A program made the translations under genes and the position numbers. A stretch of DNA of 64,000 nt, from NCBI GenBank assembly GCA_030426085.1, contig JAUHYW010000004.1, positions 186,001 through 250,000 on the forward strand. Reading direction: 5' to 3'. This stretch comes from a bacterium. Lineage in GTDB: Bacteria > Myxococcota_A > Bradymonadia > UBA7976 > UBA1532. The notes under the pieces were generated by a model. The model was given only the letters and a program-made list of their open reading frames with translations, was not told the DNA's origin and made no database searches. The stretch's first letter is position 1. Each line of letters starts with the position of its first letter. Shown here piece by piece: positions 61,884 through 64,000 of this stretch.

Positions 61884-62381
61884 TCAATCACCGCCCAGAT
61901 TGCAGGCGTTCTCCGTCGGCATGCACCCCGAGAGCAGCTCAGCGGCCGGGGTCAGCGGCTGCCCGTCCTGGTCGACCTCGAAGGTGCCCCCGCGGATCCA
62001 GGCCGAGACGACCCGCCACGCGCAGCCGGTCGTGCCCGCGAAGCAGATCGGGTGGCCCACCGCCGCCGGATCACCAGCCAGGGCGACCCGCAGCAGGATG
62101 CTGTCCTCGGGGTTCTCCAGGTCGACGGCGGCCTTGGCCGACTGATACTCGGCGTCGCGGGCGCCGGCCTCGCCGGTGATCTTGAAGTTGCCCTGTGTCA
62201 CCGCGTGGCAGAAGGCCTGCCCGCAGCCGATGGTCAGCATCGCCTGCTGGGCGGCGATGAAGTCCGCCTGGTTGTCGGGTATGACCTCGAGGGCCAGCGC
62301 GGTGACCTCGCCCTCGCCGCAGCCGACGAGGGCGACGGCGGCGAGCGCGAGCGCCAGCGCGGCAGGCGCCGATCGATTCAT
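61884..62381 (-). CDS. Cytochrome-like lipoprotein with CX4CH motif
   Basis: A 165-residue lipoprotein (lipobox AVALVGC). Its core resembles small myxobacterial heme-type proteins: TIGCGQAFCH gives a CX4CH heme-binding motif in place of CX2CH, followed by VDLENPEDSILLRVAL, a Cys pair in ICFAGTTGCAWRVV and SAWIRGGT. The CX4CH motif is known from cytochrome c3. Whether heme is attached is not proven. Its ATG overlaps the RlmE stop by ATGA. Convergent with ctaA, seven bases apart. Confidence 0.8.
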   Translation of the reverse strand: MNRSAPAALALALAAVALVGCGEGEVTALALEVIPDNQADFIAAQQAMLTIGCGQAFCHAVTQGNFKITGEAGARDAEYQSAKAAVDLENPEDSILLRVALAGDPAAVGHPICFAGTTGCAWRVVSAWIRGGTFEVDQDGQPLTPAAELLSGCMPTENACNLGGD

Positions 62382-63262
62382 GGCTCCTCCTGCTCGTCGG
62401 GGGTCTCGGGGGCGAGGCGGCCCTGGGCGACGATGAACAGCTCGACGCTCTCGCTGCGGGTGCTCTTGGGCTTGATGCGCTTGAGCGTGCGATAGCGGGC
62501 CTTCACCTCGGCGACCAGATCGGGCACATCGCCGCCCTCGAAGACCTTGCACACGAAGGCTCCGCCCGGCCGGACCAGCGCGTCGGCCAGGTGCAGGGCC
62601 CGGCGGCACAGGTCGACCGAGCGCACATGATCGGTGAAGCGGTCGCCGGTGGTGTCGGGGGCCATGTCGCTGAGCACGACGTCGAAGGGCCCGCCGCCCG
62701 CGTCGAGGAAGACCGCCGCGTCGGTCTCGAAGATGTCGCCCACCAGGGTGGTGACCTGGGGCGCGTCGAACTGGATGGGCCGGCGGTCGATGCCCACGAC
62801 CCGGCCCCCGGGACCGACCTTCTTCGCCGCGTACTGGGTCCACGAGCCGGGGGCGCAGCCCAGGTCGAGCACCCGCAGGTTGCGCCGCAGGAGTCGGGTG
62901 CGGCGGTCGATCTCCTCGAGCTTGAAGACGCTGCGGGCGGCGTACCCCGCGGCCTTGGCCCGGCGGGTGTAGTGGTCCGGTCGACGACGGCTGGCCATGG
63001 GCTCAGCCTGCCCGACGGCCCCGGTGGACGCAAGGCGGGCGAGGCGGGCCCGCAGCGCCGCCGCCCGGGCCTCCCGGTCGCCGATCACCGGCCCGGTGGG
63101 GCTGGCCAGCCGGTCGCCGGGGCGGGCCTCGGGCGGCAGATCGGCGATGGGCACGTCGAGCTGGCGCCCGGCCTCGTCGATCAACACCGCCATCGGTGGC
63201 TCGAAGCGGTCGATGCTCAGCACGAGCAGGGCCACCGCGGTCAGCAGGCCGAAGAGGGTCAC
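62378..63262 (-). CDS. rlmE: DUF3006-RlmE fusion: 23S rRNA 2'-O-methyltransferase
   Basis: A 294-residue frame read from GTG 63262, which overlaps the RadC stop by GTGA. Residues 1-88: hydrophobic start (LFGLLTAVALLVLSI) and a DUF3006 segment (IDRFEPPMAVLIDEAG, VPIADLPPEARPGDRL). From residue 89 (ATG 62998) comes a complete RlmE: SAM site DLGCAPGSW, SDMAPDTTG, VCKVFEGG and SVELFIV, giving the K-D-K-E set. RlmE methylates U2552 of 23S rRNA (E. coli numbering). No stop separates the parts, so either a fusion is made or RlmE starts separately at 62998, which has only a weak ribosome site. Confidence 0.85.
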   Translation of the reverse strand: MTLFGLLTAVALLVLSIDRFEPPMAVLIDEAGRQLDVPIADLPPEARPGDRLASPTGPVIGDREARAAALRARLARLASTGAVGQAEPMASRRRPDHYTRRAKAAGYAARSVFKLEEIDRRTRLLRRNLRVLDLGCAPGSWTQYAAKKVGPGGRVVGIDRRPIQFDAPQVTTLVGDIFETDAAVFLDAGGGPFDVVLSDMAPDTTGDRFTDHVRSVDLCRRALHLADALVRPGGAFVCKVFEGGDVPDLVAEVKARYRTLKRIKPKSTRSESVELFIVAQGRLAPETPDEQEEP

Positions 63263-64000
63263 GCCGGGTCTCCCAGCAGCACCCAGGCGTCGCGCCCGCC
63301 GACGAGCACCACCCGCTCGAGGTGCAGGCCCACCAGCCGGGCGGCCTCGTCCAGCCGCAGCGCGGCCTCCCGCTCGGCCGGGCGGGGCTCGCCGCCGGGG
63401 CGCACCACGAACACCCACCACGGGCCGGGCCCCTCGCCCAACATGCGGGCCAAGTGGCTGCCCAGGCGGGTGCGGGGGCCGAGGCCCTCCCCCAGCGCCA
63501 GGGTCACCGGCTCGACGTGCTCCTGGGGGCGCAGGCCGAGGACGGCCCGCTCGCCGATGGCCACCTGCCCCCGCATGCGCTCGATGGCGTCGGTCAGCGG
63601 GTCGTCGGGCGGGGGCGGCGCGGCCGGCGGCTCGACCGGGCCGGATCGCAACGTCAGTTCGAAGGCCGCCCGGATGCGGGCCGCCTTGACCGGCCCGATG
63701 CCGCGGATCGTCTGCAGCGCCTCGGGGGTCGCCGCGCCGAGGGCCTCGACCCCGCCCAGCTCGTCGAGGACCCGCCGGGCGAGCTGGAGCGCGTCCTCGC
63801 CGTTGCCCCGCCCGGTGCCGAGCACCAGCGCCAGCAGGCCGGCCGAGTCGAGGGTGTGGGCCCCGTCGCGCAGCAGCTTCTCCCGGGGGCGGTCCTCCGG
63901 CGGCAGATCCCACAGCGTGGGGCCGCCGGGGCCACCGGGGTCGTCGTCGTCGGGCGGTGGCCCTGGCGGCGGCGCGGGGTCGGTGTCGGCCTCGAGGCGG
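63259..64000 (-). CDS. RadC-family protein with degraded JAMM motif (5' end outside)
   Basis: The window ends inside this gene; 246 codons are visible. The N-terminal helix-hairpin part is typical RadC (WDLPPEDRPREKLLRDGAHTL, GLLALVLGTG, IRGIGPVKAARI). In the C-terminal JAMM domain the usual HNHPSGDP metal motif reads VVRPGGEP, so both histidines and the Asp are gone. RadC proteins are thought to act in DNA repair or horizontal exchange. This copy probably has a non-enzymatic binding role. Its stop overlaps the DUF3006-RlmE start. Confidence 0.85.
   Translation of the reverse strand, partial: RLEADTDPAPPPGPPPDDDDPGGPGGPTLWDLPPEDRPREKLLRDGAHTLDSAGLLALVLGTGRGNGEDALQLARRVLDELGGVEALGAATPEALQTIRGIGPVKAARIRAAFELTLRSGPVEPPAAPPPPDDPLTDAIERMRGQVAIGERAVLGLRPQEHVEPVTLALGEGLGPRTRLGSHLARMLGEGPGPWWVFVVRPGGEPRPAEREAALRLDEAARLVGLHLERVVLVGGRDAWVLLGDPA

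Follow-up and report, generated by a model that had tools for sequence, protein, structure and literature searches.

A probable promoter nested in an in-frame DUF3006-RlmE junction and the predicted leaderless expression of RlmE in a Myxococcota family

In the window, the 64,000-nucleotide stretch of DNA analyzed here, a DUF3006 domain and a complete RlmE-type methyltransferase occupy one continuous reading frame. The favored explanation, with a probability of roughly 70%, is that RlmE is made alone from a promoter nested at the junction, starting at position 62998, and that the DUF3006 frame can additionally yield a DUF3006-RlmE fusion. The same DNA would then have three roles: it ends the DUF3006 coding sequence, acts as a promoter and leads into rlmE.

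Organization of the locus

The genes concerned are the following.

62378-63262, minus strand: continuous DUF3006-RlmE reading frame, GTG start, 294 aa (translation and Pfam)
63259-64000, minus strand: RadC-like gene (UPF0758_N, Pfam), its stop overlapping the DUF3006 start; extends past the window edge
62378-62998, minus strand: complete RlmE with its own ATG at 62998, a predicted leaderless start (PF01728, 173.6 bits)
61884-62381, minus strand: small lipoprotein-like gene (ORF call), its ATG overlapping the RlmE stop (ATGA)

The initial annotation, made from the sequence, described a frame that opens at a GTG overlapping the RadC stop and runs uninterrupted through DUF3006 into a complete RlmE. 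Both parts of this description hold: the overlap is a GTGA with the RadC-like gene upstream, and translation of the window DNA from GTG 63262 to the stop codon at 62378-62380 (minus strand) meets zero internal stops, giving 294 residues with matches to PF11213 and PF01728. Since the DUF3006 start overlaps or directly adjoins an upstream stop in 10/10 genomes having this DUF3006, GTG 63262 is credible as a start. Openness of the frame alone is weak evidence, because the 10.1 Mb source genome is 74% GC and the window's minus-strand frame meets no stop anywhere between 64000 and 62378; what lifts the frame above chance is that eight more genomes have DUF3006 and RlmE in one stop-free frame.

Of the flanking genes, the lipoprotein-like gene (61884-62381) had no Pfam match, and in the RadC-like protein Pfam matched UPF0758_N and not the JAB domain. 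As a separate observation, VRPGG or a similar sequence replaces the HNHPSG metal motif in the RadC-like proteins of the window and of loci L004-L008, L010, L011, L013, L014 and L123, and these residues suggest a RadC that is conserved but has lost catalytic activity.

A probable promoter within the junction

The DNA of 12 family RlmE genes, three of which lack the fusion, was aligned with the RlmE start codon as anchor, and revealed a probable promoter lying across the last codons before RlmE.

62996-63034, minus strand: nested promoter and start codon, C-TTGCGT-N17-CAGGCT-GAGCCC-ATG (12-genome alignment)
63028-63033, minus strand: -35-like hexamer TTGCGT, beginning in a rare Leu codon CTT (TTG invariant, 12/12)
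63005-63010, minus strand: -10-like hexamer CAGGCT, ending 6 nt before the ATG (CA 12/12, last T 11/12)
62999-63028, minus strand: linker residues 79-88, overlapping the promoter, of low model confidence (pLDDT)

All 12 genes fit TTG-N20-CANNNT-N6-start codon, with the exceptions of one that lacks the -10 T (G002, where the hexamer is CAAATG) and one with 7 bases before the start (G004). The invariant alignment positions upstream of the start are TTG, T44, C49 and A50, and the spacings are otherwise fixed, at 17 nt between hexamers and 6 nt to the ATG or GTG. In the window the pattern has one match, with 0.01 expected. The promoter is retained where DUF3006 is absent (G011 and G004) or separated from RlmE by a TGA (G001), and a looser version of it fits 3/75 RlmE genes outside the family.

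Codon usage in the fused frames provides a further view of what is conserved. The Leu codon at the -35 position is CTT in 9/9 fused frames, compared with 15/259 of the other Leu codons in the same frames, an enrichment with a binomial probability of 7e-12 that ignores shared ancestry, and kinship among the 12 aligned sequences inflates naive p-values. Other invariant Leu columns are encoded mainly by codons other than CTT. The -10 T is likewise kept in 8/9 fused frames although the residue it helps encode varies among A, R, G and F, and in the alignment of fused proteins the linker amino acids are not conserved; the AlphaFold model gives pLDDT values of 63 for residues 71-80 and 58 for residues 81-90. 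Because the CTT and the -10 T are kept while residues vary and the linker peptide is unconserved, this comparison of sequences indicates that the DNA and not the peptide is conserved at the junction, and points to selection on the DNA.

A generic sigma-70 scan detected no promoter at the junction; both hexamers differ greatly from the E. coli sigma-70 consensus, which explains the miss. Two other candidates were considered and rejected: a heat-shock (sigma-32) promoter, prompted by CTTGAA, and a junction peptide motif (RHGAP or GQAEP before Met) representing a translated Shine-Dalgarno sequence, for which the pairing is unremarkable and the bases fit the -35/-10 spacing.

The conserved DNA might instead not be a promoter at all, with RlmE made by internal, Shine-Dalgarno-directed ribosome entry on a long radC-DUF3006-rlmE mRNA. 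In G002, where the -10 is degraded, a GGAGG lies just ahead of the ATG, and predicted pairing is moderate in some copies. The conserved positions, however, counted from the start codon, are -35 and -12 to -7, separated by 17 nt, and do not form a GGAGG, mean predicted pairing is weaker at RlmE than at DUF3006 starts (about -5 versus -8 kcal/mol), and the spaced motif recurs genome-wide with an excess that vanishes when the spacer is altered by one base, all of which makes internal entry in place of a promoter unlikely. Predicted pairing at 62998 itself is weak to moderate, and ribosomes could enter there on the long mRNA as well as on one from the nested promoter.

A predicted leaderless promoter class in the family

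The pattern CTTG-N20-CANNNT-N6-ATG has 19 matches in the source genome and 0 for the reversed pattern. Across eight family genomes (G000, G001, G003, G005, G006, G007, G010 and G012) there are 99 matches at spacer 17 versus 16 at spacer 16; the corresponding counts are 9 and 10 in five genomes that belong to other families of the class. The counts of looser scans partly track codon phase, so that the one-base change in spacer is the better control, and the statistics are drawn from pattern searches together with 464 kb of sequence. Half of the 18 other matches in the source genome start proteins with Pfam domains, including an ABC transporter, a protein kinase, a TetR, an acyltransferase, an M16 peptidase and others, and the M16 peptidase gene shares the same CAGGCTGAGCCCATG.

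The locus points to a promoter class, CTTG-N20-CANNNT-N6-ATG, that is predicted to be leaderless and is strongly over-represented in the Myxococcota family and not in the five genomes of other families. From the spacing it is predicted that the transcript would have its +1 at the RlmE start codon, giving a leaderless mRNA. In the literature searched, no paper had leaderless genes in Myxococcota as its subject by title or abstract.

Distribution and history

DUF3006 and RlmE share one stop-free frame in 9/13 family genomes, the window included, spanning seven genera. In G001, of the same genus as the window, the two are in frame with a TGA between them; G004 and G011, both of genus g4, have RlmE and no DUF3006; and G008 gave no match in the 13-genome survey. 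Elsewhere in the class (44 genomes) RlmE occurs only in genus g14, and there alone, and a DUF3006 profile trained on the family detected no DUF3006 at 75 RlmE loci from outside it or at four g14 loci. The class-level search places the fusion only in the window's Myxococcota family, and the search of other genomes proposed in the initial annotation yielded eight further examples, all from that family.

These relatives bear on whether a sequencing or assembly error conceals a stop codon between the two domains, as the initial annotation had cautioned. The relatives are metagenome-assembled genomes, which leaves some room for such errors, but nine genomes from seven genera share the stop-free junction; as an explanation for all of them a hidden stop is excluded, and its probability is negligible.

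In the sister-family genome G013 a RadC-like gene is followed directly by a DUF3006 with its own stop and a signal-like N-terminus, and the 3.2 kb locus has no RlmE. In G011 the order is RadC, about 75 bp containing the promoter, and RlmE. Based on these two gene orders, the RadC-DUF3006 pair is probably ancestral; RlmE would then have come to lie downstream in the family, and the stop of DUF3006 would have disappeared or, in one genus, the whole of DUF3006. The family backbone is not resolved in the RlmE gene tree, and hence the tree does not settle this order of events.

DUF3006 and its hydrophobic front

Two features define the first part of the frame.

63065-63217, minus strand: DUF3006 domain match, residues 16-66 (PF11213)
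63215-63256, minus strand: hydrophobic helix, frame residues 3-16, with no K/R ahead of it (AlphaFold helix and hydropathy)

PF11213 scores 41.5 bits in the fusion and 39.8 bits with DUF3006 alone, against a cut-off of 32.3. In the AlphaFold model the helix at 3-16 is followed by a small domain for DUF3006, then by a linker of low confidence and the RlmE fold. Hydropathy of the N-terminal stretch is 2.68 over 15 residues, and the hydrophobic front noted in the initial annotation is kept among relatives. Ahead of this stretch there are 0 K/R in 9/9 fused copies and 3-4 in both unfused copies, a difference with a Fisher p of 0.018 in a small sample with relatedness ignored. As a hint from these residues, the lack of K/R might reflect a fused form retained with its enzyme in the cytoplasm. 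DUF3006 was not mentioned in the literature searched.

Most family genomes also carry a second, free-standing DUF3006 (G000:C67:50922-51044, designated L002; L103-L108; L111), and genus g4, without the RlmE-linked DUF3006, is without the free-standing one too. The free-standing DUF3006 of the sister family (L110 and L113) terminates in DDDGGDFSL and adjoins a small conserved gene (SLSDEQLK...ILKKVY).

The RlmE protein

Over the full frame, PF01728 (FtsJ) scores 172 bits against a cut-off of 24.1. Residues K114, D199, K239 and E274 are invariant in nine aligned sequences and correspond to what we take to be the catalytic K-D-K-E tetrad of E. coli FtsJ, and the RlmE part folds like E. coli FtsJ 1eiz, which is among the top structure matches. 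The NCBIfam equivalog cut-offs for RlmE are missed (TIGR00438, 163.5 versus 300.15 bits; PRK11188, 139 versus 269 bits), although RlmE families are nonetheless the best-scoring ones. With the equivalog cut-offs unmet, the protein is best described from its sequence as an RlmE-like FtsJ homologue for which methylation of U2552 in 23S rRNA is likely rather than established. Growth of E. coli without RlmE is 2-4 times slower (PMC11194073). The class-level search (E 1e-10) detected no RlmE in about 40 of the 57 genomes, where another enzyme may fill its role.

Products of the locus

In the favored explanation, transcription from the TTG-N20-CANNNT promoter would begin within 1-2 bases of the RlmE start codon, and RlmE would be translated by itself from a leaderless mRNA at 62998; both the transcription start and the leaderless translation are predictions. 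Translation of DUF3006 would start at GTG 63262, coupled to the RadC-like gene, and because DUF3006 has no stop in nine genomes, it must enter RlmE. Ribosomes on the stop-less DUF3006 would run on into RlmE; the resulting DUF3006-RlmE polypeptide, whose existence and abundance we infer, would probably be the lesser of the two products.

The frame itself has been maintained. Junction lengths are 45, 54, 105 and 126 nt (192 nt in G001), all multiples of three, and across 200 linker codons stops number zero in frame 0 and 1 and 7 in the two alternative frames, some of these stemming from the promoter's own CTTGA. Taken with the nine stop-free genomes and the fused copies' lack of the K/R seen in both unfused ones, this would suit a fusion protein that is the sole product, RlmE acting in the family as a DUF3006-anchored enzyme. 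A fusion alone does not account for a promoter kept with codon-level precision, for an unconserved linker peptide, or for the g4 RlmE genes, which have no DUF3006 yet the same promoter, and it is very improbable. An RlmE that exists only in membrane-anchored form, the odd prospect raised in the initial annotation, is thus unsupported: six bases separate ATG 62998 from the end of the promoter, which is present in 12/12 relatives, and G001, of the same genus, has a TGA before RlmE yet retains the promoter. The annotation's other suggestion, that two products are made from one frame, is favored, with a nested promoter and leaderless mRNA as the mechanism, while its fusion product is unproven.

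A narrower version of the favored explanation, possible but less than even in probability, is that RlmE from the nested promoter is the sole meaningful product, DUF3006 having merely lost its stop, with run-on as noise. At 74% GC, base composition predicts stops in only about 1.5% of random codons, the linker amino acids are unconserved and one lineage has a stop; on the other side, a conserved DUF3006 adjoins the RadC-like gene in ten genomes, its translation must enter RlmE in nine, and the frame persists over several junction lengths. The kept frame and the missing K/R are hints, not proof, that the fused form is also made. More tentative still is a pair of functional isoforms, in which soluble RlmE from the nested leaderless promoter would be accompanied by a membrane-attached DUF3006-RlmE whose orientation is altered by loss of N-terminal charge, leaving the enzyme cytoplasmic. 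If the long form is made, it would amount to membrane-linked rRNA methylation, which would be unusual.

More generally, two genes with overlapping signals can pass for a single fused gene when a genome is rich in GC, and a choice of the longest frame would here assign RlmE a misleading N-terminus.

Comparison with known systems

Like the small DUF3006 (PF11213) protein, the domain described here exceeds the Pfam cut-off, but it differs in its hydrophobic N-terminal stretch and in having no stop before the next gene; sister-family G013 has the same RadC-DUF3006 pair, but as separate genes. With RlmE (FtsJ/RrmJ), the 2'-O-methyltransferase of 23S rRNA U2552, the protein shares the complete FtsJ fold and K-D-K-E residues, and it differs in its sub-cut-off NCBIfam scores and the DUF3006 ahead of it in frame. 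Bacterial genes with internal starts that yield long and short forms exist, and here too one frame has two predicted products; in this case, however, the shorter product is a whole enzyme in its own right, and a nested leaderless promoter would act as the switch.

The closest parallel for the promoter is in leaderless genes. In Deinococcus, experiments support a leaderless layout whose -10 motif precedes the ORF by about 6-7 bp (PMC12340547), and leaderless layouts with a -10 near the ORF are predicted in many bacteria (PMC3160421). As in the leaderless genes of Deinococcus-Thermus and Actinobacteria (PMC12340547, PMC3160421), a -10-like element about 6 bp before the start recurs genome-wide; in contrast to them, the element is CANNNT and not TANNNT, has a CTTG partner across an invariant 17-nt spacer and, at rlmE, sits inside another open frame.
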